The notes beneath the pieces are model-generated. The model saw only the letters and a list, made by a program, of their open reading frames with translations. It was not told the origin of the DNA and did not search any database. The translations under genes and the position numbers were made by a program. A stretch of DNA of 64,000 bases, taken from Zobellia uliginosa. GTDB taxonomy: Bacteria > Bacteroidota > Bacteroidia > Flavobacteriales > Flavobacteriaceae. Numbering within the stretch: the first letter of the stretch is position 1; each line of letters opens with the position of its first letter. The stretch spans positions 806,001 to 870,000 of the forward strand of contig NZ_FTOB01000004.1 of the NCBI RefSeq assembly GCF_900156625.1, written 5' to 3'. This document shows, piece after piece, positions 27,725-51,124 of this stretch.

Positions 27725-28180
27725 TTAAGAATTTTTCTTAAAATATTTAAAGGGTACAACGAGCATACCAAAGCATTCCCCATCACCTTTCCCTAAATGC
27801 TTGTGGTGCATTTTGTGGGCCCTTCTAACGCCCCTTGCATACCAGTGGTTGGCATTCCTGAACATTTTAAACCGTTGGTGGATAAAGATGTCGTGCACTA
27901 AAAAGTAGGCTATGCCGTAAGCTAGAATGCCAAAACCCAGGGGCCATCCGTACCAAAAGGAAGTTTGGGCTCCCAAGTAAAAGAGAACCATGCTTACAAT
28001 GGCGTAGAAAACAAAGAAAGTATCGTTTCTTTCGAACCACGAGTCATGGTCTTTTTTGTGGTGGTCTTGGTGTAGGCTCCATAGAAAACCGTGCATGATG
28101 TATTTATGGGTAAACCAGGCCATGAATTCCATAAAGGAAAAAGTTCCTAAAAATAGGGCTATCCAGATTACTGTTTTCAT
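27725..28180 (-). CDS. crtZ: Beta-carotene hydroxylase CrtZ
   Basis: A 151-residue membrane di-iron hydroxylase that adds 3-hydroxyl groups to beta-carotene, giving zeaxanthin. Histidine motifs typical of the fatty-acid-hydroxylase family are visible: HKYIMHGFLWSLHQDHHKKDH, then HDIFIHQRF and HKMHHKHLG. Hydrophobic segments lie between them. It is the last gene of the leftward crt unit and starts 1 bp after the crtB stop. No lycopene cyclase (crtY) gene is in this cluster, so cyclisation must be encoded elsewhere. Confidence 0.93.
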   Translation of the reverse strand: MKTVIWIALFLGTFSFMEFMAWFTHKYIMHGFLWSLHQDHHKKDHDSWFERNDTFFVFYAIVSMVLFYLGAQTSFWYGWPLGFGILAYGIAYFLVHDIFIHQRFKMFRNANHWYARGVRRAHKMHHKHLGKGDGECFGMLVVPFKYFKKNS

Positions 28181-28181
28181 G

Positions 28182-29021: not shown

Positions 29022-29032
29022 AATCTTGGCTT

Positions 29033-30490: not shown

Positions 30491-30516
30491 GGGGGAATGG
30501 CGAATGGCCGCTAATT

Positions 30517-31416
30517 TTATAACTGTTCTATTACCTTGTCGATAGAGCTGAACAACTTGATGCACGAAGGTAATTGGCGAGGGTCCAAATATTGGGTTTG
30601 GTAGCCTAATAACCAAAGTTTGGCCTGGGGGTAATCGCTGGCAAGGGAGGCAAATTCCGCTACGTATTGTTCAATTTTATCCTTTGTTGGCGATACGGTA
30701 AAGTATGATATGAAATGGGCACCTTCAAAGGTCTTCATCAGCTCCTGTAAGTTCTTTAAAGGAACCGTCTGGCCTAGATAAATGGATTTATAGCCTTTTG
30801 AAACTATTTCATAGTTCAAAAATAGAAGTCCTATTTCATGGATTTCGTTTTCGGGCAAATAGGGCACGATCACGGGCGTCTGGGTCACCGTTTGTACCTG
30901 GGCCATTTCCTCCGTCTTGAGAATTATCTTTTGTTTGATGAGGTTGGCCACAAAATGTTCGTGGGCGGGACTAATAGTGTCGGTCTGCCATAGAATGCCC
31001 AATTCATTGAGCAAGGGGACAAAGGTTTCCCTAAAAATTTCGCTAAACGTATACTTTTCAAGCAAGCTGTTGTAGGTCTGGGTGAAAAGGGCCTGGTCGA
31101 AATTTATCATAGCCAGTTTAAAGGCGTTGGCTACGTAGTCTTCGGTATGGTTCTTTGATGTGATATCGCTTACCAGTTGAGGGATCCTCCCTTCCTCAAA
31201 ATGCGCGATCTTTGATATTTTATAGCCATTGTTGTAGAGCAGGGTAATGTTCAGTAGCTTTTGCAGGCTTTCTAAACTATACCTTCTGATATTGGTGTCG
31301 GTACGTTCTGGCGATAACAGGTTATATCTTTTTTCCCAAATACGGATGGTGTGGGCCTTTATGCCCGAGAGGTTTTCTAAATCGCGAATGCTAAATGATT
31401 TTTTTATATTGTTCAT
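30517..31416 (-). CDS. MerR-family regulator with CarH-like B12-binding domain
   Basis: A 299-residue transcription factor. The MerR helix-turn-helix is at the N-terminus (FSIRDLENLSGIKAHTIRIWEKRYNLLSP). The C-terminal half has the signatures of the adenosylcobalamin photoreceptors CarA/CarH/LitR: Trp143-x9-Glu153-His154 (in LWQTDTISPAHEHF) and the cobalamin-binding Glu191-x-His193-x-x-Gly196 (in ENEIHEIGLLFL), followed by a Rossmann-like B12 domain. Such proteins repress carotenoid genes in the dark and release DNA when light breaks the Co-C bond. The direct operon with crtI, crtB and crtZ supports this reading; light responsiveness is inference. Confidence 0.88.
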   Translation of the reverse strand: MNNIKKSFSIRDLENLSGIKAHTIRIWEKRYNLLSPERTDTNIRRYSLESLQKLLNITLLYNNGYKISKIAHFEEGRIPQLVSDITSKNHTEDYVANAFKLAMINFDQALFTQTYNSLLEKYTFSEIFRETFVPLLNELGILWQTDTISPAHEHFVANLIKQKIILKTEEMAQVQTVTQTPVIVPYLPENEIHEIGLLFLNYEIVSKGYKSIYLGQTVPLKNLQELMKTFEGAHFISYFTVSPTKDKIEQYVAEFASLASDYPQAKLWLLGYQTQYLDPRQLPSCIKLFSSIDKVIEQL

Positions 31417-31437
31417 TCTTTTTTGATAAACATTAAA

Positions 31438-31445
31438 CAAATCTA
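31438..31445 (-). promoter_or_regulatory. Probable -7 box of the merR-crt operon
   Basis: On the minus strand TAGATTTG matches TAnnTTTG, 21 bp before the merR ATG at 31416, giving a leader of roughly 15 bases. I found no good -33 box at normal spacing. A palindrome TTACT-N6-AGTAA lies at 31485-31500, a possible operator. Confidence 0.45.
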
Positions 31446-31656: not shown

Positions 31657-31924
31657 AATTTAAATTTTAGAAAGGCCGATAAGTGCCGGTCTGTTCGAAA
31701 ATCAGAATGCAAATATCTGCAAAATATATAATCTATTCAAAGAAGTTTTGAAATTAGCGCATTATGGTGGGGTAATTTGCTGTTACATACAATGTTGCAC
31801 CGTACTTTTGATGGTTTTTTTAGAGCCTGAACGGGGTTTTCGACTACTGGTCCTAGCTTGGGAAGAAGGGCCATACGGTCAAAAACGCCGTGTTTTGCTA
31901 AAATACTCGTCATACTTTAATAAC
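31657..31924. other. Intergenic DNA between tRNA-Leu and the sensor operon
   Basis: No convincing gene. An 82-codon frame at 31748-31996 has poor composition (Cys-rich stretch, no family) and overlaps the regulatory site. The region presumably holds the divergent tRNA promoter. Confidence 0.5.
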
Positions 31925-31993
31925 CATTCGTCTACAGTTAAGCGTCATTCGTCTACGCTCGGTCATTATTTGAAGTTTAAAGATGAAAATTTG
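31925..31993 (+). promoter_or_regulatory. LytTR-type box and promoter of the sensor operon
   Basis: CATTCGTCTAC occurs at 31925-31935 and again at 31946-31956, a direct repeat with a 21-bp period (two helical turns). The first copy continues as CATTCGTCTACAGTTAAG, containing ACAGTTAAG, which fits the general LytTR consensus. A -7-like AAAATTTG (31986-31993) starts 61 bp after the box start and sits 24 bp before the receiver gene ATG. The same box and spacing recur at 38286 and 46896. Confidence 0.65.
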
Positions 31994-32016
31994 TAGTTCA
32001 CTTAAATTATAGAGCT

Positions 32017-32418
32017 ATGGATATTTTACTGATTGAAGATGATGCCATTGAAGTAATGAAATTACAACGTACGGTCAAAAAGCTTGAACTTAAACACAAT
32101 ATCATCGAAACCAAAAACGGCGAAGATGCGCTTGAGATATTACGATCTGGAGATAAATTACCCGATATTATACTTTTAGATTTGAATATGCCTCGAATGA
32201 ACGGGATAGAATTCCTGACTATTTTAAAAGCGGATCCCGTTCTTAAATACTTGCCGACGGTAATTCTTACGACTTCTGAAAATAGGGCCGATTTGTTAGA
32301 ATGTTATAAGGTAGGTGTCGCCGGATACGTGATAAAACCCCTAAAATATGAGGAGTACCAATCGAAATTACATAAGGTATTGGACTACTGGGACATCAAT
32401 CAACTGGTCAAAGGGTAA
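32017..32418 (+). CDS. Stand-alone receiver protein (Rcp1-like)
   Basis: A 133-residue single-domain response regulator. Acidic pocket Asp8-Asp9, phosphoacceptor Asp55 in IILLDLNMPRMNG, Thr85/Thr86 in VILTTSENR and Lys107 in YVIKPLK are all intact. It has no output domain. The Rcp1-like form (long loop LKADPVLKYLPTVIL) is typical of receivers paired with PAS or phytochrome kinases. As first gene of the operon it could relay phosphate from the two histidine kinases to the Hpt protein encoded 5 kb downstream. The start ATG gives MDILLIEDD directly. Confidence 0.93.
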   Translation: MDILLIEDDAIEVMKLQRTVKKLELKHNIIETKNGEDALEILRSGDKLPDIILLDLNMPRMNGIEFLTILKADPVLKYLPTVILTTSENRADLLECYKVGVAGYVIKPLKYEEYQSKLHKVLDYWDINQLVKG

Positions 32419-32494
32419 CAAATATTAAGCTTTCACAACAAAAATTCTTTAACGGATACTACTTTTCCTACTTTTATTGAGTAAATTTAAAGGT

Positions 32495-33037
32495 ATGAAA
32501 GGTATAGTCTTTACAGAGTTCCTAGAAATGGTCGAATCTAAATTCGGCCTAGAGACTCTTGATAATATAATTGAAAATGGTCATTTGCCTTCGGAAGGTG
32601 TTTATACCTCTGTGGGGACTTATGATTTCAATGAGATGGTAACTCTTATTACCAACCTCAGCGAAGAGACGAAAATTCCCGTCGGCGATCTGATTTATGC
32701 ATTTGGACTTTACCTTTTTTCAGGGCTGGCCAATTCGCATCCTGAAGTAATCAAAAACTACAACACCCCCTTGGGGCTTCTTTACTGTATAGAAGACCAT
32801 ATACACGTACATGTAAAAAAGCTTTATCCCGACGCCGAACTTCCCACCTTTAAAATCCTTGATAAAACCGACGATAAAATATCAATGGTATATTCTTCGT
32901 CGAGGGGACTGTATCGTTTGGCGCACGGTTTAATTGAAAAGGCTTTTGAACATTTTGGAAGTACGGCCACTATTACCTACGACCTGTTAAAGGAAGACGG
33001 AACCGAGGTCAAATTTGATATTGTTCAAAATGGATAG
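32495..33037 (+). CDS. H-NOX haem-binding sensor protein
   Basis: A 180-residue H-NOX (HNOB) domain protein, a cytosolic haem sensor of nitric oxide. The start at ATG 32495 gives the family N-terminus MKGIVFTEFLEMVESKFG. The proximal haem ligand is His104 in EDHIHVHVKKLYPDAELP, and the porphyrin-propionate motif Y-x-S-x-R is Tyr133-Ser135-Arg137 (MVYSSSRGL). The distal position that is Tyr140 in the oxygen-binding Thermoanaerobacter protein aligns with Leu142, so this one is predicted to prefer NO over O2. It overlaps the start of the following kinase gene by 8 bp, the usual coupling of H-NOX with its kinase. Confidence 0.94.
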   Translation: MKGIVFTEFLEMVESKFGLETLDNIIENGHLPSEGVYTSVGTYDFNEMVTLITNLSEETKIPVGDLIYAFGLYLFSGLANSHPEVIKNYNTPLGLLYCIEDHIHVHVKKLYPDAELPTFKILDKTDDKISMVYSSSRGLYRLAHGLIEKAFEHFGSTATITYDLLKEDGTEVKFDIVQNG

Positions 33038-35021
33038 TAGTAAAGAAGTAGAACTTCTCAAAAGGGCCCTAGAGCGGCAAAAGAAAGCCCGACAGCAGGC
33101 CGAAAAAATCCTTGAACAAAAATCAACGGACCTTTATGAAACCGCCCAACGGTTAAAGGAAGCCAATGGCAAGCTCGAGAACCTCTTGAGTGAAAAGGTA
33201 TCTGAGTTAGATGGTGTCTTCGTGAATATCATAGATCCCTATGTGGTTATGGATCTCGAGGCCAACGTTATTAAAATGAATACTTCTGCCAAAGAATTTT
33301 TAGGGTATGACAATACCAAGGAAGAAGTCAACCTGAACAGTCTTGTACATAAAGATTATATACAATACACGGCAGAATCGTTTAAATATCTATTGGAAAT
33401 CGGCACCCTTAAAAACTATCGTTCCAAAATTTACGTCAAGAACGGCGATGAAAAATGGATCGAGATTAACAGCAGCCTAATCTACAATACAAAACAAGAA
33501 CCTGTAGGCGCCCAAGGAATCATAAGGGATATTACCAAAGAAATGGAAATCAAGGAGCTTTTGGGGCAACAAAGGAAGCAGCTCGACATCATAGTCGAGA
33601 ATTCGCCTTTGGGCATAGCCTTGAGCGTTGAGGGAAAGATCATAAAGTCGAACAATACTTTTACCGAGCTTTTGGGGTATACCGAAGGAGAGCTTAAAAG
33701 CATGGAACTCGATACATTTTCTAAAGATGTCGAAGGAATGTATTCCAAGGAAATTGCCTCGCAAATGGAGAAAGGTAAAATCGACAAGGCCACCACTATA
33801 AAAAGATACATGAAAAAGGGTGGAGGGTGTATCTTAGGAAAGACCTCGGTCAGTGCGGTAAGGGATGACAAAGGAAAGCTCAAGTATATTTTGGCAATGA
33901 TCGAAGATATCACTAGGGAACGTGAAGCCGAAGAACGCTTGAACAGCGAACGAAAAAAGTATGCCAATATCATCGCCAATATGAACCTTGGCCTGGTAGA
34001 AGTAGACAATAATGACATCATACAATTGGTGAACCAAAGCTTCTGTACCATGAGCGGGTTTCACGAAAAAGAGCTTTTGGGCAAAAAAGGAAGTGAGGTA
34101 CTGCGTGTACAGAATAAAAACGTTCTTGAGGCCGAAAACGAAAAGCGCGTTATGGGCGAATCCGATTCGTATGAGCTGGAGGTCATTGATAAAAACGGAC
34201 AAAAGAGGCATTGGTTGGTCAGCGGGGCACCACGTTATGACCACAACAACGAGATCATAGGTTCGGTAGGCGTACATTTAGATATAACCAAGCAAAAACT
34301 GTTAGAGCACCAGAAAGAACAACTGGTAAAGGAACTTGAGCTGAGCAACCAAGGTTTACAGGAATACGCGCATATAGTTTCACACGATTTAAAATCACCC
34401 TTACGGAGTATAAGTGCCTTGGCTACTTGGATCCAAGAAGACTATAAAGACGTTCTCGATGAGGCAGGGCAACAGAACCTGACCCTAATGCAAGAGAAAG
34501 TAGCATCAATGGATAAATTGATACACGGTATTCTCGAGTATTCTACGGCAAATAACTCTGCGCTCGACAACTCCAAGGTAGACCTGAACGAGGTTATCGA
34601 AAGTATAAAGGAAAGTATCTATATACCCGAACATGTTGCCCTTGTTGTTCCCGAAGTACTACCTACCATTATTGCAGACCGTACCAAAATCCACCAATTG
34701 TTCCAAAATATTCTTTCCAATGCCGTAGTGCATATTGAAAAGGAAAAAGGACTGGTGGAAGTATTGTTCAAGGAAAATGAAAGCCACTGGCAGTTTTCCG
34801 TAAAAGATAATGGCGTGGGCATCCCTAAGGAATACCACAAGAAAATATTTGAAATTTTCCAATCTATAGGTGCCAATGAACGATCAACGGGCATCGGACT
34901 ATCCATCGTGAAAAAAATCATCGATCGCTATGAAGGTGAAGTCTGGGTAGAAAGCGAAAAAGGTATGGGTACCGAATTTCACTTTACCATTAAAAAGGAA
35001 TTAACCGACTTAAAAAGCTAA
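33030..35021 (+). CDS. PAS-domain sensor histidine kinase, H-NOX partner
   Basis: A 663-residue soluble kinase with no membrane segment. An N-terminal coiled coil (LKRALERQKKARQQAEKIL) leads to three PAS domains (about 65-180, 190-305 and 310-425: VVMDLEANVIKMNTSAKEFL, IALSVEGKIIKSNNTFTELL, LVEVDNNDIIQLVNQSF). The dimerisation/phosphoacceptor box carries His452 in HIVSHDLKSPLRSI, and the ATPase domain has DNGVGIPKEYHKKIFEIFQ and ERSTGIGLSIVKKI. The start (ATG 33030) lies inside the end of the H-NOX gene. It is likely inhibited or activated by NO-bound H-NOX, as in other H-NOX kinase pairs; the sign is unknown. Confidence 0.93.
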   Translation: MDSSKEVELLKRALERQKKARQQAEKILEQKSTDLYETAQRLKEANGKLENLLSEKVSELDGVFVNIIDPYVVMDLEANVIKMNTSAKEFLGYDNTKEEVNLNSLVHKDYIQYTAESFKYLLEIGTLKNYRSKIYVKNGDEKWIEINSSLIYNTKQEPVGAQGIIRDITKEMEIKELLGQQRKQLDIIVENSPLGIALSVEGKIIKSNNTFTELLGYTEGELKSMELDTFSKDVEGMYSKEIASQMEKGKIDKATTIKRYMKKGGGCILGKTSVSAVRDDKGKLKYILAMIEDITREREAEERLNSERKKYANIIANMNLGLVEVDNNDIIQLVNQSFCTMSGFHEKELLGKKGSEVLRVQNKNVLEAENEKRVMGESDSYELEVIDKNGQKRHWLVSGAPRYDHNNEIIGSVGVHLDITKQKLLEHQKEQLVKELELSNQGLQEYAHIVSHDLKSPLRSISALATWIQEDYKDVLDEAGQQNLTLMQEKVASMDKLIHGILEYSTANNSALDNSKVDLNEVIESIKESIYIPEHVALVVPEVLPTIIADRTKIHQLFQNILSNAVVHIEKEKGLVEVLFKENESHWQFSVKDNGVGIPKEYHKKIFEIFQSIGANERSTGIGLSIVKKIIDRYEGEVWVESEKGMGTEFHFTIKKELTDLKS

Positions 35022-35022
35022 C

Positions 35023-36156
35023 ATGAAAATACAACAGGCCGTTAAAGAGGGAAATCGCCCTTTCGAGTTGCGATTAGGAAAAGACCACCAATTGAAAAAT
35101 CCTTTGGTATTGGTCTTCGGTAATCGCTACGCTCTTGAAAATGAGGCTATGCTAGAGGAGGTACGGACGCTTTTTCCAGAAGGACATATTGTTTTTGGGA
35201 GTACGGCAGGTGAAATTGTAGGTGAATCGGTTTTGGAAGGTACGGTAACATTGACGGCCATCGCGTTTGAAAAAAGTCATTTTTTGATCAAATCGAAGAA
35301 TGTAAAGGATATTACCGACGATTATACACTGGGAAAATCACTATTTGATGAATTTCCCAAGGAAGGGTTAAGACATGTGTTCTTGGTTTCTGAAGGCAGT
35401 ACGGTAAACGGTAGTGCCCTTATCAATGGATTTCAAAGGGATGTTTTGAACAAAACCAGCCTCTCGGGAGGTTTATGTGGTGATGATGACCGCTTCGAAA
35501 GAACTTTGGCCTCTTACAATGAAAAACCAAAAGAGGGAGAAATAGTAGCTATTGGTTTTTATGGGGAATCGCTTGAAATCTCAAGTGCCAATTATGGCGG
35601 ATGGACACCCTTTGGCCCGGAGCGTATTATTACCAAATCTAAAAACAACCTACTCTATGAGTTGGACGGTCAGCCGGCCCTAGACCTGTATAAAAGATAT
35701 TTGGGTGATAAGGCAAAAGAATTGCCGACATCGGCGCTGCTCTTTCCTTTGAGTGTAAGGGTCGATGAAAGTGATAATCCCATTGTACGTACCATTTTGA
35801 CCATAGACGAAGAAATGAATACCATGACCTTGGCCGGCGATGTTCCCGAAGGATCAAGGGTCCAGTTGATGATGTCTACGGTCGACGATATAGCCGAAGC
35901 GGCAAATATAGCCGCCCAATATGCTATGAACGACAGAAAAACGGCTCCTGAGCTGGCTATTCTTGTCAGCTGTGTCGGTAGGAAGTTGGTCATGGACCAA
36001 AGAACGGAAGAGGAAGTCGAAGAGGTGATTTCGGTCATTGGCGACAAAGCCGCCGTTACCGGGTTCTATTCCTATGGCGAGATGGCTCCCTTTGCAGGGG
36101 AAGAGTCGTGCAAACTACATAATCAGACCATGACCCTAACCTTGTTCAGCGAATAA
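35023..36156 (+). CDS. FIST-domain sensor protein, NosP-like
   Basis: A 377-residue cytosolic FIST protein. The FIST_N domain contains HIVFGSTAGEIVGESV and SLSGGLCGDDDRFERT; the FIST_C domain has TGFYSYGEMAPFAG and ends with LHNQTMTLTLFSE, as in the family. FIST proteins include NosP, a haem protein that senses NO and controls a neighbouring kinase. No ligand motif can be fixed by eye, so haem binding is inference from the family and from the neighbours. It starts 1 bp after the first kinase gene and overlaps the second kinase's ATG by one base. Confidence 0.88.
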   Translation: MKIQQAVKEGNRPFELRLGKDHQLKNPLVLVFGNRYALENEAMLEEVRTLFPEGHIVFGSTAGEIVGESVLEGTVTLTAIAFEKSHFLIKSKNVKDITDDYTLGKSLFDEFPKEGLRHVFLVSEGSTVNGSALINGFQRDVLNKTSLSGGLCGDDDRFERTLASYNEKPKEGEIVAIGFYGESLEISSANYGGWTPFGPERIITKSKNNLLYELDGQPALDLYKRYLGDKAKELPTSALLFPLSVRVDESDNPIVRTILTIDEEMNTMTLAGDVPEGSRVQLMMSTVDDIAEAANIAAQYAMNDRKTAPELAILVSCVGRKLVMDQRTEEEVEEVISVIGDKAAVTGFYSYGEMAPFAGEESCKLHNQTMTLTLFSE

Positions 36157-37217
36157 TGCACTCACTCCTACAAAGACAACTAAGAAAAAATTTGCCAGAG
36201 CATCTTGCAAAAGACGCCCAGTTGCAAGATTTTCTCGCTGCCGTAGAGAGGTCATATGAAAATTATGACGAAAAGTTGAGTATGATACAAAGGGCGACCA
36301 CCATCAGCTCGGAAGAATTGTTCGAAGCAAATAGGGAATTGACCAAGGAAGCGGCCCGGCAACAAAAAATCTTGGAATCGCTTGAAAGTGCCATAGCAAG
36401 CCTTAACGTCCATTTTGAAGATGAAGAACAGGCCTTAGGGGGGCGAAAAACGGAATTCGATGCCGAGAAACTGGCCAAACATATTAGCCATCTTGCTATA
36501 CAGGTGGCTCAAATCACCGAAGAAAAAACCCTTTTGCTCAATGATGTAGAGGCTCAGAACGAATCGCTCAATAATTATGTTCAAATGGTTTCCCATGATC
36601 TTAAATCACCTATACGTAACGTCAGTGCCCTGTTGAGTTGGGTGACTGATACCGATAAGGAAAACCTAAGCCAAGAAAGTATCGGTAATATAGAGCTTGC
36701 ATCGAAGAATTTGACCAAAATGGATAATTTGATCAACGGTATTCTGACGCATGCCACCATCGGTAAAAATATGGAATCGAAGAGCAATGTTGATGTCAAT
36801 GAGTTATTAAGGGAGGTTGAAAGTAATATATCGATACCAGAAAACGTTAGTCTTAGGTATAAACGTAATTTTCCTACGATATATATAGAGAAAAACCTAT
36901 TGGAGAAGGTTTTTACCTATCTGATAGAAAATGCAATTGCGGCCACGGAACATCGCGACAGAGGATTGGTGGAGATCGATTTTTTAGATAATGACGCGTA
37001 TTATGAATTTGCGATCGCCGATAACGGAATAGGAATTCCCGAGAAGCACCAGTCGTCTATATTCGAGATGTTTAAGAAGCTTGATAACAACGATAATTCG
37101 GCAGGGGTCGGTCTGGCATTGGCCAAAAAAATAGTAAAACTCTATGAAGGTGAGATTGTTGTGGAATCAAAAGAAGGTATGGGAACAACCTTTTCCTTTA
37201 CCCTAAAAAAGCAGTAA
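36156..37217 (+). CDS. Sensor histidine kinase, FIST partner
   Basis: A 353-residue soluble kinase. The first 125 residues are helical and coiled-coil (SYENYDEKLSMIQRATTISSEELFEANREL), of the type found in kinases encoded next to FIST proteins, and then comes the H box with His147 in MVSHDLKSPIRNVSALLSW. The ATPase domain has DNGIGIPEKHQSSIFEMF and SAGVGLALAKKIVKLYEG. It has no PAS or membrane segment, so the signal probably comes through the FIST protein. Its catalytic core closely resembles that of the first kinase (SHDLKSPxR, ALxxW), suggesting duplication or shared targets. The stop/start TAATG overlap couples it to the FIST gene. Confidence 0.92.
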   Translation: MHSLLQRQLRKNLPEHLAKDAQLQDFLAAVERSYENYDEKLSMIQRATTISSEELFEANRELTKEAARQQKILESLESAIASLNVHFEDEEQALGGRKTEFDAEKLAKHISHLAIQVAQITEEKTLLLNDVEAQNESLNNYVQMVSHDLKSPIRNVSALLSWVTDTDKENLSQESIGNIELASKNLTKMDNLINGILTHATIGKNMESKSNVDVNELLREVESNISIPENVSLRYKRNFPTIYIEKNLLEKVFTYLIENAIAATEHRDRGLVEIDFLDNDAYYEFAIADNGIGIPEKHQSSIFEMFKKLDNNDNSAGVGLALAKKIVKLYEGEIVVESKEGMGTTFSFTLKKQ

Positions 37218-37218
37218 T

Positions 37219-37536
37219 ATGGAACAGCCAAACCTAAAGTATATAAAAGAATTGTCGGGTGACGATGTAGAATTTGAAGAGAAATTTATATCCATCCTAA
37301 AAGATGAGTTTCCAGTGGAAGTAGCCACTTATAGAGATCATATAGATAGCAAGGAAACAAACAAGGCCGCCGATATCGTTCACAAGTTGAAACATAAGTT
37401 CAATATCCTTAGTATGGAGGAAGCCTATCGCTTCGCCGTAGTTTTTGAAGAGCAATTACGTAGTGGAAAGACCGAAATGGATTCAGATTTTAATTGTACT
37501 TTAGGGAAAATAGATGACTTTTTAAAAACGCTTTAA
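37219..37536 (+). CDS. Histidine phosphotransfer (Hpt) protein
   Basis: A 105-residue four-helix protein with the phosphoacceptor His55 in ADIVHKLKHKFNILS, the standard Hpt signature, and flanking helices with charged faces. It follows the second kinase by 1 bp and precedes the LytTR regulator by 2 bp. Since neither kinase has its own receiver domain, the stand-alone receiver at 32017 is the obvious source of phosphate for this protein, which would then pass it to the LytTR receiver. That order is inference. Confidence 0.9.
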   Translation: MEQPNLKYIKELSGDDVEFEEKFISILKDEFPVEVATYRDHIDSKETNKAADIVHKLKHKFNILSMEEAYRFAVVFEEQLRSGKTEMDSDFNCTLGKIDDFLKTL

Positions 37537-37538
37537 AC

Positions 37539-38264
37539 ATGGATTGCATTATCATAGACGATGAAGCAACAGCACGGGCAATAGTGGCGCGCCATTGTTC
37601 GCTGGTTTCAGATCTAAATGTCGTTGAAGAATTTGATAATGCCATCGATGCCATAAAATTCTTGAACCGTCAAGAGGTCGATGTTATTTTCTTGGATATA
37701 CATATGCCCGGTTTCTCGGGAGTCGATTTCGTTCAGACCTTAAAGAATCCCCCTAAAATAGTCCTGATTACTTCAGATACCGAATTTGCTATCGAAGCCT
37801 ATGAATATGAGGCCATAGTCGATTACTTGGTAAAACCCCTTACCCTTGAACGCTTCGTGAAATCTATGGGCAAGATTAAAAATGCCACCCGTAAAACGAC
37901 AGATAGGCCAGATCAGGGTTCTGAGGAAAAAAAACATACGCATCTAGATAAGGCTGAAGACTTGTACATCAATATCGATAAACGCTTGATAAAACTTCAC
38001 TTTAACGAGATATTGGTCATCAGGGCCAATGGTGACTATATTGATGTAACTACAGAAAACAAAGAATACCGCGTACATACTACCTTAAAAAAAATCAAGG
38101 AGAAACTCCCCGATCAGATCTTTCTGCAAATTCATAGATCCTATGTTATCAATATCTCGAAAATCATCGATATTGAAGACAACAGTGTGTTGATAAAGAA
38201 GATGGTGATTCCCATTAGTCGATCAAATCGTCCCGAACTTATGCGACGATTGAACTTGGTTTAA
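37539..38264 (+). CDS. LytTR-family response regulator
   Basis: A 241-residue transcription factor. The receiver domain (1-115) has Asp7-Asp8, phosphoacceptor Asp53 in FLDIHMPGFSG, Thr78 and Lys99 in YLVKPL. The LytTR DNA-binding domain covers about residues 138-241 (LYINIDKRLIKLHFNEILVI, ANGDYIDVTTENKEYRVH, FLQIHRSYVINISKI, VLIKKMVIPISRSNR). LytTR proteins bind pairs of direct repeats about 21 bp apart, the spacing seen at 31925-31956. It is the last gene of the sensor operon, and a LytTR-type promoter starts 22 bp past its stop codon. Confidence 0.94.
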   Translation: MDCIIIDDEATARAIVARHCSLVSDLNVVEEFDNAIDAIKFLNRQEVDVIFLDIHMPGFSGVDFVQTLKNPPKIVLITSDTEFAIEAYEYEAIVDYLVKPLTLERFVKSMGKIKNATRKTTDRPDQGSEEKKHTHLDKAEDLYINIDKRLIKLHFNEILVIRANGDYIDVTTENKEYRVHTTLKKIKEKLPDQIFLQIHRSYVINISKIIDIEDNSVLIKKMVIPISRSNRPELMRRLNLV

Positions 38265-38285
38265 GGCTTTTCTACAATTTTGTGC

Positions 38286-38354
38286 CGTTCATCTATAGGT
38301 TCCCGTCACTCATCGTAAGGGCTTTCTTATTTAGAAAGAACTGATGTAAATTTG
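38286..38354 (+). promoter_or_regulatory. LytTR-type box and promoter of the 38-aa peptide gene
   Basis: CGTTCATCTATAGG (from 38286) and, 21 bp on, CACTCATCGTA (from 38307) align with the boxes at 31925: 11 of the first 15 positions match, and the 9 of 11 from CGTCA onward. A perfect -7 box TAAATTTG (38347-38354) starts 61 bp after the box start, and the flank GATGTAAATTTGTAG is nearly identical to that at 31981-31996. The inverted repeat CTTTCT-N5-AGAAAG lies between (38322-38338). Confidence 0.6.
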
Positions 38355-38379: not shown

Positions 38380-38496
38380 ATGAAAGCAAATCTCTTATAC
38401 ATCTTAAGCAACAAAGGGGCTGCTATACGTTTGATAGGTGTGCTTACATCGGTTATCATCGGCATTGTATTGGCCGTGATGAGTATCTGGGGCTAG
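38380..38496 (+). CDS. 38-residue membrane peptide
   Basis: An open frame MKANLLYILSNKGAAIRLIG then a hydrophobic helix (VLTSVIIGIVLAVMSIWG) and stop. The N-terminal half is amphipathic and basic, the C-terminal half spans a membrane. It lies 25 bp after a consensus -7 box that itself follows a LytTR-type box, and is the first gene after the LytTR regulator, so it is likely a target of that regulator. I recognise no family. The size and topology resemble small accessory proteins of membrane machines. A terminator (38628-38656) lies downstream, shared with the convergent TPR gene. Confidence 0.6.
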   Translation: MKANLLYILSNKGAAIRLIGVLTSVIIGIVLAVMSIWG

Positions 38497-38657: not shown

Positions 38658-40718
38658 TTATTGGGCAAGGCGTTTGTAGAACAAGGGCTTCTTGGTAATA
38701 AGCCATTTTAGCTTTAATCCGATTTCGGTAAACTCAAACCCAGCCGCGGTAGCCGATGCGATGTTACTGTACTTTCCGTATAAATTACCGCTAAAACGCT
38801 TTGAAAATTTATGTGTTATACCCGCTTCGGCCCTAAATATTACGGTGTTGGGATCTTCTTCTACCTGCTGTAGGCCCGTTGCCGCACTGATCATATACTG
38901 GGTGTTCTTGGCTATATCGCCCCGTAGATCGGCAAATACCTCTACCGCTTGGTATTTTTCGGGACTAAAATAAATGGTAGGCAATTGTTCCGCAAAAGAG
39001 AGGTACTGGTAGTTTAGCCCGACCTTAAGGGCGGGTTTGCGCATCACGTTATAGTACAGTGAGGTGAACAAGAGGTTGCGGGTGTTATTGTCACTTTGTG
39101 TGGTGTGTATAGCTTGGGTATACCAGCCCAGGTTAAAGTTGGTACCCAGGTTGTAGTTGAGGCCCAGATGGTTCATGATGATTTCACGTTCGATCAGATC
39201 GGCGTTAAAGTTTTGGATCTCGCGCTTATACCCCAGTTCAAGGTTTTGTAGCTTGAAAGGTTGTAATAAGAGCTTTACATCGATTACGGGTTGGGTGTAG
39301 TCCTCCGAGCCAAAGCTGGACTTGTTCAGGCCTGCAATGGCCTTAAAAGTGGTTTTCGGGAGGAATTTGTAATCGAAACCGGCGGAAAGTACATGTGAAC
39401 TTGCTTTGTTGTCGGTTATTGTATTTTCCGTAGTCCTGTAATTATAGGATAGGTTGGTGCTAAACTTGGTTGATAAGGGAACGGTGGCCGTAGTATTGGT
39501 AGATATGGCAACGTTCTTACCATTGTCAAAAGTATAGGCCAAGTGTTCGTCTATGGTAGGGGTAAAGCTTACGTTTAACTTGTCGATAAAACCAATGGCA
39601 TCTTTTTGGTCCTTGAAAATCTTTAAGGTTCCAAAGGCCGCTTGGTATGCGGGAACAATGCGGTCGGCAGCGAAAAGCGCATTGGCCTTCCCTAGGTTGC
39701 CATCAAAGGAAGCACTGTCATTTTTTAAAATGGCATCGTAATTGGCGACACTCTTTTTCGGTGAACCGGTGTAGAGGCCGTGCATGGCCTTGAGTGCGTA
39801 TAACCAGTTCTTATCGGCATACTTGGTTTCCAAAGCCGCGATTTCGGTTTGGGCCAGATTGTATTTTCGGTTCCATATCAGGGCTTGAACATAGCGGTCG
39901 TAGGTCTTTTCCATTAAGGTTTCATCGCCCAATGTCTCGGCTTTTTCCTTTGCCGTTGTGGCAACTACCAAGGCCTGTTTGTCGTTCTCGCCTATATGCT
40001 CGGCAAGGGCAATGCCGTTAAGCGCCGTAATCGAGTCTTTTGATGAGGTGGCAAGGCGTTGGTAGGTGGCTTTGGCCTGATCCACTTCCTTGGTGATCAA
40101 ATAGAGGTTGGCCAAATTGAGCAAAGCGTCTTTGTCTTCGGGAAAATCGATAAAAATTTCCTTTAATAGGCTTTCTCCCTTCTTGTAGTTTTGAGCGTTG
40201 ACATAGGCATTGGCATACCCTAAACGCATATATTTTCGCGACGTTTTAGCACTGGGGTTACCAGGCTGTATCACTAGGGCCTTTTCTACCCATTCCAGGG
40301 CTTCTTTATATTTCTTTAGGTTACTCAGCGTATTGGCATACCCTAGTACGGCCCCAAAATTTTCTGGGTACGCTTTTACGAGTTCGGCATAAAGGGGTTC
40401 GGCCTTTTCGAATTTTTTATCCCAGAGAAATGATTCGTTGTAATTTATCTGTATTTCAAAATCACCGGGGTATTCTTTTAAGAGGTCGGCGAACAGTTCT
40501 GTGGCCTTTTCGGGTTCGCCACTTAGGCCTACGGCACGACCATAACAGATCAATGCGGTTTTGTTCTTCGGGTCATCGGAAAGATAACCTTCAAAGAAAG
40601 TCTCTGCTTGCTCAAAACTGCCGTTTTCCAACAAGGTGAAACCCGGTTGAAGCGGATTTTGGGCCATTCCGTAAAAAGAAAGGAACAGGAATAAACAGAG
40701 CGTATTTAGTTTTAACAT
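38658..40718 (-). CDS. TPR protein with C-terminal outer-membrane beta-barrel
   Basis: A 686-residue exported protein with signal peptide MLKLNTLCLFLFLSFYGMAQ. Residues 25-375 are tetratricopeptide repeats (LLENGSFEQAETFFEGYL, ALGWVEKALVIQPGNP-like units, LLNLANLYLITKEVDQAK). Residues 400-686 show alternating amphipathic strands with aromatic ends (YTFDNGKNVAISTNTTATV, LNYNLGTNFNLGWYTQAIHT, LKVGLNYQYLSF) ending in KPLFYKRLAQ, as an outer-membrane barrel. A TPR-plus-barrel is the architecture of exopolysaccharide export porins such as PgaA, BcsC and PelB. Next to a GH5-like hydrolase and glycosyltransferases, it is probably the export pore of an exopolysaccharide. Confidence 0.82.
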   Translation of the reverse strand: MLKLNTLCLFLFLSFYGMAQNPLQPGFTLLENGSFEQAETFFEGYLSDDPKNKTALICYGRAVGLSGEPEKATELFADLLKEYPGDFEIQINYNESFLWDKKFEKAEPLYAELVKAYPENFGAVLGYANTLSNLKKYKEALEWVEKALVIQPGNPSAKTSRKYMRLGYANAYVNAQNYKKGESLLKEIFIDFPEDKDALLNLANLYLITKEVDQAKATYQRLATSSKDSITALNGIALAEHIGENDKQALVVATTAKEKAETLGDETLMEKTYDRYVQALIWNRKYNLAQTEIAALETKYADKNWLYALKAMHGLYTGSPKKSVANYDAILKNDSASFDGNLGKANALFAADRIVPAYQAAFGTLKIFKDQKDAIGFIDKLNVSFTPTIDEHLAYTFDNGKNVAISTNTTATVPLSTKFSTNLSYNYRTTENTITDNKASSHVLSAGFDYKFLPKTTFKAIAGLNKSSFGSEDYTQPVIDVKLLLQPFKLQNLELGYKREIQNFNADLIEREIIMNHLGLNYNLGTNFNLGWYTQAIHTTQSDNNTRNLLFTSLYYNVMRKPALKVGLNYQYLSFAEQLPTIYFSPEKYQAVEVFADLRGDIAKNTQYMISAATGLQQVEEDPNTVIFRAEAGITHKFSKRFSGNLYGKYSNIASATAAGFEFTEIGLKLKWLITKKPLFYKRLAQ

Positions 40719-46810: not shown

Positions 46811-46895
46811 TGAGGTTATTTGTCAGAAAATATAACATTGTAAAGGTATTAATATTGTATTTCATCGATGGTATTGCTTATCTATGGCAATACGC

Positions 46896-46965
46896 CATTC
46901 GTCTACAGTTAAGTGTAAATCAGCAATTTCGAGTCTGAAAAGGCGCTGATGGGAGGGTAAATTTG
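46896..46965 (+). promoter_or_regulatory. LytTR-type box and promoter of the flippase/glycosyltransferase operon
   Basis: CATTCGTCTACAGTTAAG (46896-46913) is identical over 18 bases to the box at 31925. A perfect -7 box TAAATTTG (46958-46965) starts 62 bp after the box start. The second half-site, 21 bp on, is weak. The promoter points toward the flippase gene. Confidence 0.65.
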
Positions 46966-47369: not shown

Positions 47370-48638
47370 ATGACCGCCATCAAATTAATGTTGAAGAAAG
47401 TGTCCCAAGAACAGTTGTTCATGGGGAGCGTACTTTTGGTAAACGGTGGCAACTACCTATACAATTTATTATTGGGGCGCCTATTGGGCCCTGCCGCTTT
47501 TTCGGAAGCAGCACTTTTGGTAACCTTATTATTGGTCTTGTCCTTTATGGGAATGACCTTTCAGCTGGCTACCGCAAAATTTGCGGTTATTTTTTCGGGC
47601 CGTGAATGGGATGTGTTCAAAAACATCAGTTACCGTCAGGCTAGTATAGTAGGTCTGGTCATAGGAATTCTCATTCTTGCTTTTTCAAAACAACTGCAAT
47701 CGCTTTTCAATACCAATAGCCATTGGATGTTTGTCATCTTCGGCCTAGGTATACCTATTTACTTTTTTATGAGTGTTAATAGGGGGGCTTATCAAGGTAG
47801 ACAAGAGTTTGCCAAATTGTCCATCACCTATCAGACCGAAATGTGGAGCCGATTGCTATTAACCATGATCTTGCTCTTTTGGTTAGATATTGAGCCTGGA
47901 ACATTGGTAGCCTTGGGTATCTTTTTGTCTTTTCTGTTCGGGCTTTTTCCTTCCGATAGTACGTCCATATCCTTTAAGGAATCTAGAAAGTTGAGTCCAG
48001 ATAATGCAAAGCGGGTCTCACAGTTTATCTGGTTGACCGCTTGTTACGAGTTTACCCAGATCATAATAAACAATAGTGACGTATTGTTGGTGAAGCATTA
48101 CTTCGAACCTGTGGAGGCGGGGCTATATGCTTCATTGGCCCTAATAGGTAGGGTAGTGTATTTTGTGGCATGGATGTTCGTGATGTTACTGTTGCCCGTA
48201 GTGGTACAAAAACAAAAAGATGGACAACCAACGGCCCCGATTTTATTTAAATATGTATCGTATATAGGACTGTTGTCGGCCGGTATCGTGGTGGTCTGTT
48301 ACTTTTTTCCGGAATTGATCATAACCCTTATGTTCGGGGATTCCTATATCGCTATGTCTAGCTTGTTATGGCAGTACGCCCTGGCCACATCACTGTTTGC
48401 CATATCGAATATTTTCGCCTATTACTTTTTGTCCCTAGACCACTATGTACCCGTAATCCTTTCAGGGGTATTGGGGCTTTCACAGATTTTATTGGTAGTG
48501 CTTTATCATGAGAGTCTTGATCGTGTGGTACATATGCAGCTTATTGCCATGTCGGTACTATTGTTGGTTCAGTTGCTGTATTTCGCCCATAAGGAATTAG
48601 GCCGAAACGGCACACCCGAAAAAGCTAGGGAAAAATAA
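47370..48638 (+). CDS. Wzx-like polysaccharide flippase
   Basis: A 422-residue inner-membrane protein with twelve hydrophobic helices. The N-terminal LVNGGNYLYNLLLGRLLGPA is the classical opening of oligosaccharide flippases of the MOP superfamily, and FTQIIINNSDVLLVKHYFEP is another family landmark (residues 230-250). The last helices end in a basic tail (HKELGRNGTPEKAREK). It resembles PelG and Wzx. It is followed at 68 bp by a glycosyltransferase gene and would export a lipid-linked or nascent polymer. Start at ATG 47370. Confidence 0.88.
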   Translation: MTAIKLMLKKVSQEQLFMGSVLLVNGGNYLYNLLLGRLLGPAAFSEAALLVTLLLVLSFMGMTFQLATAKFAVIFSGREWDVFKNISYRQASIVGLVIGILILAFSKQLQSLFNTNSHWMFVIFGLGIPIYFFMSVNRGAYQGRQEFAKLSITYQTEMWSRLLLTMILLFWLDIEPGTLVALGIFLSFLFGLFPSDSTSISFKESRKLSPDNAKRVSQFIWLTACYEFTQIIINNSDVLLVKHYFEPVEAGLYASLALIGRVVYFVAWMFVMLLLPVVVQKQKDGQPTAPILFKYVSYIGLLSAGIVVVCYFFPELIITLMFGDSYIAMSSLLWQYALATSLFAISNIFAYYFLSLDHYVPVILSGVLGLSQILLVVLYHESLDRVVHMQLIAMSVLLLVQLLYFAHKELGRNGTPEKAREK

Positions 48639-48706: not shown

Positions 48707-49945
48707 ATGAAATTAGCCATTGTAACCGCATATCCCCCCAGTAAAGTAACCTTGACCGAATACGGGTATTATCTTGTAAAACACTTTAGGTTGCAAGAAG
48801 AGGTCACCGAAATTATTTTAATGACCGATAGAACCGAGGGTCCAAAAGACCTTTCCTTTGAGGGCGAGGGTTGTAAGATTACGGTTGCCGAGTGCTGGGA
48901 TTTTAATAGTTATACCAATTTATGGCGGGTCAACAAGGCCATCAAGACCCATAGTCCCGATGCCGTACTTTTTAACCTACAGTTTTTGAAGTTCGGGGAC
49001 AAAAAGATACCGGCAGCCTTAGGGTTGATGTTGCCTTATATGAGCAAGTTAAAAGGTATCCCGACTATTTCCTTGCTGCACAATATCTTGGAACAAGTAG
49101 ATTTGGATAGTGCGGGCTTTACCAAAAGCAAGTTGCTTCAGAAGATATACGGTTTTATCGGTACTACTTTGACGAAGTTCGTTTTGGCTTCCGATATATT
49201 GGCGGTGACCATCAGCAAATATGTGACTATTCTAGAAGAAAAATACAAGGCCAAGAATATTGCCTTGATCCCCCATGGGTCTTTCGAAACCCCACCGGAA
49301 CCTGATTTTAGCTTGCCCCCTGGGCCCAAGCAGGTAATGGCTTTTGGCAAGTTCGGTACCTATAAGAAGGTCGAGGTGCTTATTGAGGCCATAGAGGTCA
49401 TTCGAAATAGGAGCAATGAAGATATTGAAATTGTAATCGCCGGAACGGATAGTCCGAATACGCCGGGGTATCTAAAAAAAATGGAGGAAGTCTACAGTCA
49501 TGTCCCTCAAATACGCTTTACAGGCTATGTGGCCGAAGAAGATGTACCGGTTATTTTTGGCGAAAGCGCCGTTGTGGTCTTTCCTTATACCTCTACCACT
49601 GGTAGTTCGGGCGTATTGCACCAAGCCGGAAGTTATGGTAAAGCCGTGGCCTTACCTGATCTGGGCGATTTGAGCGTATTGGTTCAGGAAGAGGGGTATA
49701 GAGGGGAATTCTTTTTACCGGAAAACAAAGTGTCCCTAGCGGATGCAATAGAAAAAATACTCACCGATGAGGCCTACAGAACCGAACTGGCCCGGGCGAA
49801 TTACGAAGCGGCATGCTCACTACCAATGAGTGCTATCGCTAAAATGTATTTAGATTATTTCAAGGCCATTCAAGTACAAAAAACGAAAGGGCTGATAATC
49901 GATGTAAACGCCATCGGATTAACGCACGAAAAAACAAAAGCATAA
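48707..49945 (+). CDS. Glycosyltransferase family 4 protein
   Basis: A 412-residue GT-B glycosyltransferase. The N-terminal domain opens with MKLAIVTAYPPSKVTLTEYG and contains PTISLLHNILEQVDLDSAGF; the C-terminal nucleotide-sugar domain begins near residue 205 (KQVMAFGKFGTYKKVEVLIE) and has the acceptor/donor signature VVVFPYTSTTGSSGVLHQAG with the GT4 pattern of small residues. It is soluble or peripherally bound. It is cotranscribed with the flippase and the receiver-GT2 fusion. The sugar donor cannot be assigned. Confidence 0.88.
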   Translation: MKLAIVTAYPPSKVTLTEYGYYLVKHFRLQEEVTEIILMTDRTEGPKDLSFEGEGCKITVAECWDFNSYTNLWRVNKAIKTHSPDAVLFNLQFLKFGDKKIPAALGLMLPYMSKLKGIPTISLLHNILEQVDLDSAGFTKSKLLQKIYGFIGTTLTKFVLASDILAVTISKYVTILEEKYKAKNIALIPHGSFETPPEPDFSLPPGPKQVMAFGKFGTYKKVEVLIEAIEVIRNRSNEDIEIVIAGTDSPNTPGYLKKMEEVYSHVPQIRFTGYVAEEDVPVIFGESAVVVFPYTSTTGSSGVLHQAGSYGKAVALPDLGDLSVLVQEEGYRGEFFLPENKVSLADAIEKILTDEAYRTELARANYEAACSLPMSAIAKMYLDYFKAIQVQKTKGLIIDVNAIGLTHEKTKA

Positions 49946-49984: not shown

Positions 49985-51124
49985 ATGAAGATATTAACTA
50001 TTGACGACCAGCAACTGATCTTACTATCTGTAGAAAAGCGGTTGATAGAGCTAGGATATGAAGTAAGAACGGCCGGTTCGGGAGAGCTGGGCATTGAAAT
50101 ATACGACGACTTCCAACCCGATTTGGTCTTGGTCGATATCAATATGCCCGGTATGTCAGGACTTCAGGTCGTGAAGCATATCCGTACAGAGAAAAAATCA
50201 AAAACGCCTATTTTGATTATGTCGGGAAATACCGATGAAAATATAATCGTAGACGGTTTTGATTTGGGCATCAACGATTATATGAAAAAACCGGTAAGTC
50301 TAGAGGAGATGGCCGCACGTATAAAACGTATCGTAGGTGTGCCGGAAACTGAAGGGGAAACGATGAAGAGCAACGATGTACGAATGCTGCAGCAGCATTG
50401 CGTAGGTGTCGTTATACCCTGCTATAACGAGGAAGATCGCTTATCCGGACCCGAGTTCAAGGCTTTTGCCCATAAAAACCTAGGCTATCATTTATGTTTT
50501 GTAAATGACGGAAGTACCGATAAGACCCTTGAGGTGTTACAGGAACTTCGAAAAGGTCATGAATCGAATATAAGCATATACAATTGCGAGAAGAACGGAG
50601 GTAAGGCCGAAGCGGTACGACAAGGCGTCTTGCATATGATAAAAGATGAACAGTTAGATTATATAGGCTATTTAGATGCGGATCTTTCAACCGATTTTAG
50701 GGATTTTGATGACTTGGTCAAGACACTCGAAAATTCGCAGTTTAAAATAGTAAGCGGTTCGCGTATCAGTAGAATGGGGGCGAATATTACCAAAGAATCG
50801 GCTAGAAAAATCATAAGTATGACCATTAACATGATCATACAGACCATTTTGGGTATGCCGTTTAAAGATACCCAATGTGGGGCCAAGATTATGGACCGTG
50901 AGATAGCCTCTACTATGTTCAATAAAAAATTCATTACCAAATGGCTTTTTGATGTCGAGATATTTATGCGCATGAGAAAGCACTACGGAAAGGAAGAGGC
51001 CAAACGTATAATTTGCGAACAGCCGCTGAAAAGGTGGATCCACGCCGATGGTTCTAAATTATCTATGAAAGACTCGGTTAAAATTGTGGGTCAATTGGCC
51101 AAGATCGCGGTTTCCTATCGATAG
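49985..51124 (+). CDS. Receiver domain fused to GT2 glycosyltransferase
   Basis: A 379-residue two-domain protein. Residues 1-120 are a complete receiver: Asp7-Asp8, phosphoacceptor Asp51 (LVLVDINMPGMSG), Ser80 and Lys101/102. After a short linker (VPETEGETMKSND), residues 138-379 are a GT2 enzyme of the dolichyl-phosphate glucosyltransferase type: VIPCYNEEDRL, FVNDGSTDKT, the metal-binding Asp231-Asp233 in YLDADLSTDF, and KDTQCGAKIM. The domain joins glycosyl transfer to phosphorylation in one chain, so its activity may be switched by the kinases at 33-37 kb. No membrane helix is present. It starts 39 bp after the GT4 gene. Confidence 0.92.
   Translation: MKILTIDDQQLILLSVEKRLIELGYEVRTAGSGELGIEIYDDFQPDLVLVDINMPGMSGLQVVKHIRTEKKSKTPILIMSGNTDENIIVDGFDLGINDYMKKPVSLEEMAARIKRIVGVPETEGETMKSNDVRMLQQHCVGVVIPCYNEEDRLSGPEFKAFAHKNLGYHLCFVNDGSTDKTLEVLQELRKGHESNISIYNCEKNGGKAEAVRQGVLHMIKDEQLDYIGYLDADLSTDFRDFDDLVKTLENSQFKIVSGSRISRMGANITKESARKIISMTINMIIQTILGMPFKDTQCGAKIMDREIASTMFNKKFITKWLFDVEIFMRMRKHYGKEEAKRIICEQPLKRWIHADGSKLSMKDSVKIVGQLAKIAVSYR

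Follow-up and report, generated by a model that had tools for sequence, protein, structure and literature searches.

The window under study, a stretch of 64,000 nucleotides from Zobellia uliginosa (contig NZ_FTOB01000004.1, positions 806,001 to 870,000 of the forward strand), contains a seven-gene operon whose products probably form a multistep phosphorelay of soluble proteins with plug-in gas sensors. All seven open reading frames (ORFs) listed in a previous sequence-only reading of this DNA were found in the same order on the forward strand, between 32017 and 38264, and they code for a single-domain receiver (REC), an H-NOX protein, a PAS histidine kinase (kinase 1), a FIST protein, a second histidine kinase (kinase 2), an Hpt protein and a LytTR response regulator (Table 1). 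The earlier description of these genes as separated by tiny gaps or overlaps fits five junctions out of six, where neighbors are 1-2 bp apart or overlap by 1-8 bp; it is slightly generous for the passage from REC to H-NOX, which spans 58-76 bp. That reading had started the operon at 31925, the very base at which an exact direct repeat of 11 bp begins (31925-31935 and 31946-31956); the repeat is read here as a putative operator. H-NOX and FIST are each encoded by a single gene in the genome, both in the operon, and a search of the same genome returned three Hpt matches, two of them above the cut-off.

Table 1. Features of the window, numbered from its first letter (PWM, weight-matrix score; KD19, largest 19-residue Kyte-Doolittle mean)
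Feature	Position	Strand	Evidence
Putative operator of LytTR type in front of the operon, CCATTCGTCTACAGTTAAGCGTCATTCGTCTACGCT, with repeat copies 21 bp apart; a weaker match overlaps it from 31903	31924..31959	+	PWM 49.6, best in the window
Putative -7 box AAAATTTG, 5/6 fixed positions of TANNTTTG	31986..31993	+	40 bp past start of repeat copy 2
Single-domain receiver (REC), Asp55	32017..32418	+	Pfam Response_reg 1.5e-21, 77 bits; D55 172/172
H-NOX (HNOB) sensor, proximal His104	32495..33037 (ATG; alternative TTG 32477)	+	Pfam HNOB 9.4e-38
Histidine kinase 1, soluble, three PAS, His452	33030..35021 (ATG)	+	Pfam PAS, HisKA, HATPase_c; H452 182/182
FIST_N-FIST_C protein, NosP-like, below NosP cut-off	35023..36156	+	FIST 7.5e-42, FIST_C 7.4e-37
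Histidine kinase 2, soluble, without named sensor domain, His147	36156..37217	+	HATPase_c, weak HisKA; H147 97/97
Hpt, His55	37219..37536	+	Pfam Hpt 1.8e-4, 22.1 bits; H55 147/147
Response regulator REC-LytTR, Asp53	37539..38264	+	Response_reg 1.9e-18 (67.1 bits), LytTR 1.7e-19 (70.3 bits); D53 149/149
Second putative operator, before the 38-aa gene, CCGTTCATCTATAGGTTCCCGTCACTCATCGTAAGG	38285..38320	+	PWM 18.8; operator and ORF conserved in Zobellia
-7 box TAAATTTG of the 38-aa gene	38347..38354	+	40 bp past start of copy 2; same box in five Zobellia relatives
Predicted membrane protein of 38 amino acids (aa), likely regulated	38380..38496	+	KD19 2.70; 84-92% identical in ten Zobellia loci
TPR protein, convergent; outer-membrane-like C terminus suggested by a weak BCSC_C match	38658..40718	-	orthologue beside the relay in 47/108 loci
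Third putative operator, two overlapping matches, before the polysaccharide operon	46874..46930	+	PWM 20.8, 17.8; own-genome pattern match, 3 mismatches
-7 box TAAATTTG of the polysaccharide operon	46958..46965	+	62 bp past second copy of best match
Polysaccharide flippase (Polysacc_synt_3), first long ORF downstream of operator 3 on its strand	47370..48638	+	orthologue cluster 16: site in 7/15 held-out and 3/23 training genes
Group 1 glycosyltransferase	48707..49945	+	orthologue cluster 19: own site in 4/7 held-out and 10/18 training genes
Receiver fused to family 2 glycosyltransferase (REC-GT2)	49985..51124	+	Response_reg 1.3e-26, Glycos_transf_2 1e-21

All the parts of a complete relay, namely histidine kinase, REC, Hpt and a second receiver, are present, and the five phospho-residues that had been proposed (His452, His147, Asp55, His55 and Asp53) were numbered correctly and are invariant (Table 1; conserved-residue counts refer to aligned rows, rows outside the set length range being left out). 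Neither kinase carries a receiver by Pfam, and with a maximum KD19 of 1.43, below membrane-helix strength, both appear soluble, as had been stated. None of the seven proteins contains a GGDEF, EAL or HD-GYP effector domain by Pfam. When the core of kinase 2 was compared with its own genome, kinase 1 was the best of 44 other matches (197 bits, the next one reaching 106); the two kinases thus look like sister paralogues, and their closeness favors a shared REC, in line with the single pathway that the sequence-only reading had assigned to them. We infer an order in which both kinases would feed REC, REC would feed Hpt and Hpt would feed LytTR. Against near_NosP_CTERM, which stands for the NahK/ErcS hybrid kinase, kinase 2 obtains 81.4 bits, under the cut-off of 400, and it has no C-terminal receiver.

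With regard to the sensors, the HNOB domain of H-NOX scores 130.1 bits against a Pfam cut-off of 25.5, and the protein is 94-96% identical to proteins of Zobellia amurskyensis, russellii and barbeyronii. H104, the proximal haem histidine, is present in 185 of 186 rows, P117, the conserved proline, in 186, and Y133, S135 and R137 of the YxSxR motif in 186, 185 and 179, respectively. The only row with a tyrosine at the proximal histidine position is L169 (G057). The nearest solved structure is that of an H-NOX from Kordia, another flavobacterium. This structure, 6BDD, belongs to Kordia algicida (PMC7356049). The FIST (143.8 bits) and FIST_C (126.8 bits) domains extend across the whole of the FIST protein, where C317 is found in 101/101 rows and C363 and H366 in 99/101, all of them candidate haem-related residues only. 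An assignment of this protein to NosP was rejected: it scores 67.3 bits against the NCBIfam NosP equivalog (NF041558), whose cut-off is 450, which rules out formal membership, and the name is therefore not warranted in spite of a complete FIST_N and FIST_C pair encoded beside a kinase. No solved FIST structure was found in the PDB by sequence, and the predicted model is confident (predicted local distance difference test, pLDDT, 89.7), no conclusion being built on it. H-NOX and FIST are likely nitric oxide (NO) sensors, and NO would be bound by both.

The distribution of the operon was analyzed in a main sample of 299 Flavobacteriaceae genomes, drawn evenly. From 109 HNOB matches, one broken copy below the cut-off (G076:C2) was dropped, and regions of up to 15 kb were fetched around the resulting 108 H-NOX loci, with genes labelled by similarity to the window proteins; two loci without a readable H-NOX ORF (L092 and L168) reduce the architecture counts to 106. 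H-NOX occurs in 105 of the 299 genomes, FIST in 87 and both in 68, and in 58 of these 68 the two genes lie within 10 kb of each other on one strand, a proximity that exceeds chance. The arrangement REC-HNOX-HK-FIST-Hpt-LytTR accounts for 47/106 loci and the same arrangement without FIST for 38/106, which adds up to 85 complete operons; the other 21 loci are partial or rearranged, some of them at contig ends. FIST and kinase 2 form an optional cassette, missing from 38 of the 85 complete operons, and a tree of 87 rows built from H-NOX plus LytTR (a quick tree, without support check) requires 19 or more changes in the presence of FIST. The gene set is kept across many genera while the flanking genes vary. 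This neighborhood search, proposed in the sequence-only reading, did recover the co-occurrence of H-NOX, FIST, Hpt and LytTR, and it showed that the operon is family-wide and not peculiar to the genome of Z. uliginosa. A second draw, at the phylum level, gave H-NOX in 26 of 395 genomes; 12 of the 13 matches outside the family were fetched, of which one (L215) contains the full operon and operator, the rest being arranged differently. Other H-NOX arrangements, with large receiver-carrying hybrid kinases, are those of L063 (G253), L207 and L208, FIST preceding H-NOX in G253.

The operons also vary in their kinases. Kinase 1 lengths cluster at 397-413, 528-576, 652-704 and 779-835 aa (13, 25, 37 and 26 of 105 proteins), and the gap between H-NOX and FIST clusters near 1350, 1730, 2120 and 2500 bp, in steps of about one PAS domain. 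The length classes, drawn from loci L063-L170, may form a natural series running from one PAS domain to four, a count that was checked with Pfam in the window kinase only. In L203 and L205 a third kinase (430-452 aa) is located between kinase 2 and Hpt.

LytTR had been proposed as the output of the system; the REC-LytTR protein is indeed there, and where that account stopped at the protein, an operator and a set of target genes suggest what the output could be. Upstream of REC lies a direct repeat with a 21-bp period, CCATTCGTCKACACT-like and of the AlgR/LytTR type, and the same pattern is visible by eye upstream of the operon in relatives. In all nine Zobellia genomes the operator pattern is matched ahead of a REC gene (92-100% identical). 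Sites were scored with a 36-bp weight matrix (PWM) in the 100 of the 108 loci with REC directly before H-NOX. Since these loci had also served to train the matrix, and the threshold of 8 was chosen after the scores had been seen, cross-validation and held-out tests were employed. A site was detected in 92/100 operon starts, that of the window included, and in 5-fold cross-validation 92/100 regions beat the maximum of 2000 shuffled regions. In a test independent of the matrix, pairs of 8-mer half-sites 21 bp apart appeared in 72/100 regions; the average for the remaining spacings was 1.2. These 72 promoters carry direct repeats of 9-bp boxes separated by 12 bp, as expected for a LytTR site. The -7 box of Bacteroidota promoters is TANNTTTG. 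Allowing one mismatch, this box is found 40 bp (17/92) or 60-62 bp (46/92) past copy 2, the mean being 1.6 per position, and the two spacing classes differ by about one 21-bp unit. Among described LytTR sites, the AlgR box is CCGTTCGTC, or CCGTTCATC at rhlI, and direct repeats are separated by 12 bp (PMC4064291), a separation that with 9-bp boxes amounts to the 21-bp period of the operator; the AgrA repeats are centered near -60 (PMC4227749), and the spacing to the -7 box would center the sites described here about 55-80 bp ahead of the start.

The operator accompanies the operon LytTR. Both are present in 87 of the 100 loci and both are missing from six, with two plus five discordant loci (p = 1e-5). 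Three of these seven are short contigs (L098, L102 and L132); in L066 additional operon genes come later, and L153 has a strong site further upstream, which leaves L075 and L147. A later collection of 100 loci (80 named GTDB and 20 more) was used for the held-out test after exclusion of 22 that share an H-NOX 50-mer with the training loci; this gave 58 named GTDB loci, two of them without upstream DNA. In the 56 promoters, 47 combine LytTR and site, six have LytTR without a site and three a site without LytTR, all three on short contigs. This co-occurrence suggests that the operator may be bound by the operon LytTR.

Whole genomes were scanned with a strict pattern (at most two mismatches) and a looser one (three mismatches), the reversed pattern serving as control. 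The strict pattern yielded 101 matches in 73 of the 299 genomes, and its reversal none. Matches were found in 69/105 H-NOX-containing genomes versus 4/194 others, an enrichment that is in part built in, since the pattern derives from the operon promoter. Within 30 kb of H-NOX there are 85 strict matches, 55 at the operon promoter and 30 downstream, with none beyond 1.6 kb on the other side; twelve further ones in H-NOX-containing genomes are located elsewhere. Three genomes (G227, G011 and G172) act as natural experiments: their sensor operon lacks LytTR, its promoter lacks the site, and a LytTR orthologue (69-70%) sits at another place, preceded by a second REC whose site is strong (42, 35 and 45, respectively). 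In G011 and G172 the relocated LytTR adjoins target genes with sites. Six genomes seemed to have the relay without H-NOX, three of which have it cut at a contig end (L401, L402 and L405, one with an H-NOX fragment), so that the clear H-NOX-less relays are those of G005 and G123 only. The former encodes REC-HK-Hpt-LytTR, with sites before REC (45), a secreted protein (23) and a STAS protein (13); the latter encodes a very long kinase, Hpt and LytTR. Because LytTR moves together with its operator and relays without H-NOX exist, the core of the system is read as HK-REC-Hpt-LytTR plus operator and targets, to which gas sensors are attached.

In the window, scores above 8 are reached at three places only, the operon promoter, the promoter of the 38-aa gene and 46874-46930, all of them on the forward strand and outside long ORFs; the next best score is 5.8. 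Two of the three sites stand 40 bp from a -7 box and the third stands 62 bp from it, counted from the second copy of its best match. The 38-aa protein has no Pfam match. Operator matches with up to three mismatches precede its ORF (84-92% identical) in five of the nine Zobellia genomes, and weak relatives of the protein (E 0.04 and 0.2) follow an operator in L095 and L139; the flippase site is matched by the looser pattern in two of the nine. In the held-out loci, a site scoring above 8 within 260 bp was found for 7/15 flippase, 7/8 secreted-protein, 4/7 glycosyltransferase and 3/25 STAS genes, for 1/57 LytTR genes and 2/205 unassigned genes, and for none of the H-NOX (0/58), kinase 1 (0/56), FIST (0/37), kinase 2 (0/37), Hpt (0/51) and TPR (0/22) genes. 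In the training loci, within 220 bp, sites precede 33/37 genes for the secreted protein (DUF6923, with a type IX sorting tail), 10/18 for the glycosyltransferase and 8/18 and 5/6 in two STAS clusters, and matches above 12 point in the operon direction in 272 cases versus 4 in the opposite one. STAS-domain proteins of about 95-100 aa come first in several polysaccharide operons (L154, L065 and other loci). A further Zobellia candidate, C16:934259 (G000, L175), located before a DoxX-like gene beside msrA/msrB-like genes (named by eye), was rejected: it has three mismatches, no TANNTTTG by eye and no equivalent among the matches listed for eight congeners.

Taken together, these data lead us to a model that we hold with good confidence as a whole. 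H-NOX, and FIST where present, would each set the activity of its own kinase, and the phosphate of both kinases would reach the LytTR regulator by way of the lone REC and then Hpt. Once phosphorylated, LytTR would bind the 21-bp-period repeat just upstream of a Bacteroidota promoter and activate its own operon and, in Zobellia, the gene of the 38-aa membrane protein, as well as genes of the matrix and cell surface, namely flippase/glycosyltransferase polysaccharide operons and, in many relatives, the gene of a large protein ending in a type IX secretion tail. Binding of NO to H-NOX might inhibit kinase 1, with the consequence that NO would lower phosphorylated LytTR and matrix output; the sign of this effect is a guess from other species and is put forward with low confidence. 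The relay would in this manner probably signal to cells when biofilm material should be produced and when production should stop.

Several observations weigh against this model, and they have to be considered together with the other explanations. In some operons LytTR is present and no site exceeds 8 (L147, and L228, L286, L289 at 6.9, L296, L297 and L299). The window Hpt (22.1 bits) remains below its Pfam cut-off of 24.6 and the HisKA of kinase 2 (21.0 bits) below that of 26.9, and the FIST protein is far from the NosP cut-off. This last fact, together with the want of a FIST structure in the PDB by sequence, the tyrosine seen once at the proximal position and the haem-free redox sensing attributed to the H-NOX of Vibrio cholerae in a review (PMC8738867), speaks for a relay that is real and in which H-NOX and FIST, the latter perhaps haem-free, sense O2, redox state or another ligand instead of NO, so that the system reports oxygen or metabolic state. 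The near invariance of the proximal histidine, P117 and YxSxR and the Kordia H-NOX as closest structure go against it, and we regard this possibility as unlikely. Two insulated pathways might also be housed in one operon, H-NOX and kinase 1 acting on REC while FIST and kinase 2 act on Hpt/LytTR or others, which would suit the position of each sensor directly before its own kinase and the gain or loss of the FIST-kinase 2 cassette in otherwise similar operons. However, nothing else in the genome matches the kinase 2 core as well as kinase 1 does, and REC, Hpt and LytTR are retained in the 38/106 loci without FIST, which means that no second acceptor set accompanies FIST; insulation is given a low probability. 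A group of unremarkable two-component genes, assembled by chance or inherited and without a particular function, as the commonness of the domains and the order shared by descent among related genomes would permit, is already disfavored and extremely improbable, given a gene set kept in many genera with different flanks and an operator conserved beyond chance.

The remaining points concern the targets. The loss of secreted-protein sites expected in genomes without H-NOX or without an operon LytTR did not occur, as 5/6 and 2/3 copies, respectively, still carry a site (7/9 in total). Strict matches are also found in G115 and G129 and, once, in G158, which has no close LytTR orthologue (best 33%, in a genome 87% complete). 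The Z. uliginosa genome itself holds eleven further LytTR-like matches, and another regulator could therefore share the operator. All this would be expected if the repeat were a general flavobacterial LytTR box with the operon LytTR as one user among several, in which case the targets would say little about the relay. On the other side, a close LytTR orthologue (61-70%) exists in eight of the nine genomes in question, with site-bearing target genes nearby in seven of the eight regions read (G011, one of the nine, has no secreted-protein match); strict sites are almost confined to H-NOX-containing genomes and to the relay neighborhood, and in G227, G011 and G172 both operator and LytTR are gone from the sensor operon. 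A general box is accordingly judged quite unlikely. Also unfavorable to the phosphorelay model are the flippase genes of the training set, with a site in only 3/23, the Zobellia secreted-protein gene, which is located elsewhere and has no site (L340), the unlinked secreted-protein genes of H-NOX-containing genomes, which score above 8 in 10/19, and the noise of the looser pattern in the nine Zobellia genomes (31 matches versus 16 for the reversed control), owing to which the Zobellia site matches rest on position and gene context.

Most of what has been established about bacterial NO sensing via H-NOX and NosP comes from Proteobacteria, and much of this signaling runs through cyclic di-GMP (c-di-GMP); the LuxU protein of Vibrio is an Hpt. 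Proteobacterial H-NOX/kinase networks such as HnoX-HnoK and HqsK-LuxU have a biofilm output, their end points being c-di-GMP enzymes, quorum sensing or gene expression (PMC8738867). The Zobellia operon resembles them in its stand-alone H-NOX beside a kinase and, as for Vibrio, in the relay through an Hpt like LuxU, and it differs in lacking GGDEF, EAL and HD-GYP proteins and in ending at a LytTR with a candidate operator and matrix targets. With NosP-NosK-NosR and NosP-NahK-NarR, as outlined in PMC12570481, it shares a soluble kinase that has no named sensor domain and stands next to a FIST protein; unlike in those systems, the FIST protein is below the NosP cut-off, no HD-GYP or diguanylate cyclase/phosphodiesterase response regulator is present, and kinase 2, in contrast to NahK, is receiver-less, below the hybrid-kinase cut-off and in the same operon as H-NOX. 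Legionella pneumophila likewise has H-NOX and NosP-type proteins in one genome (Hnox1, Hnox2 and NosP), Hnox2 being accompanied by a kinase and a CheY-like REC (PMC11237717), at three separate loci instead of the single operon with Hpt and LytTR described here. FIST proteins near hnox are listed in the group 1 neighborhood network of PMC8738867, and the pairing of H-NOX with FIST is therefore only partly new; in that section of the review it is a statistical note, without relay, operator, regulon or flavobacterial operon. As for the regulator, direct repeats with a 12-bp separation and boxes such as CCGTTCGTC and CCGTTCATC are common to AlgR/AgrA (PMC4064291, PMC4227749), from which the Zobellia-type site departs in its longer unit (CCATTCGTCKACACTTAA), its Bacteroidota -7 promoter and its putative control by soluble gas-sensor kinases through Hpt. 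No description of the operon, operator or regulon was found in titles and abstract openings of open-licence PMC, subscription journals being mostly outside this coverage, and nothing useful on Zobellia and NO was found in the same source. The system suggests a transcriptional alternative to c-di-GMP in a large, mostly marine family of Bacteroidota. Its operator is readable, which allows predictions of the regulon for dozens of genomes and direct tests of them. Operons with or without the FIST-kinase pair, with or without H-NOX and with kinases that grow PAS by PAS constitute a natural series for studying the gain and loss of sensors in a relay.

A possible second, non-transcriptional target of the relay is REC-GT2. 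Fusions of a receiver to GT2 or to an initiating sugar transferase (Bac_transf) are seen repeatedly near the relay (L124:1158-2294, L160:1240-2436 and L082:3146-4375), which suggests phosphorylation control of polysaccharide enzymes, and further receiver genes are found downstream of LytTR in 13/89 and 18/67 loci. A two-input, two-output relay, in which Hpt would phosphorylate both LytTR and receivers fused to or encoded beside glycosyltransferases (REC-GT2 in the window, REC-sugar transferase in relatives), NO, as read by H-NOX and FIST, thereby switching polysaccharide synthesis directly and by transcription and replacing c-di-GMP in a marine Bacteroidota lineage, is a speculative extension that we consider doubtful.

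Regarding the surroundings of the operon, genes resembling nitrite reductase and genes for molybdopterin oxidoreductase (clusters 24 and 26, in 11 and 10 loci) are situated just upstream of the relay at L066, L087 and L107, among others, and might be a source of NO. In the window, the upstream region 27725-31440 encodes on the other strand a phytoene synthase and a desaturase-like protein beside a MerR/B12-binding regulator (CarH-like, below cut-off), and a tRNA-Leu gene sits between the phytoene synthase cluster and the operon.

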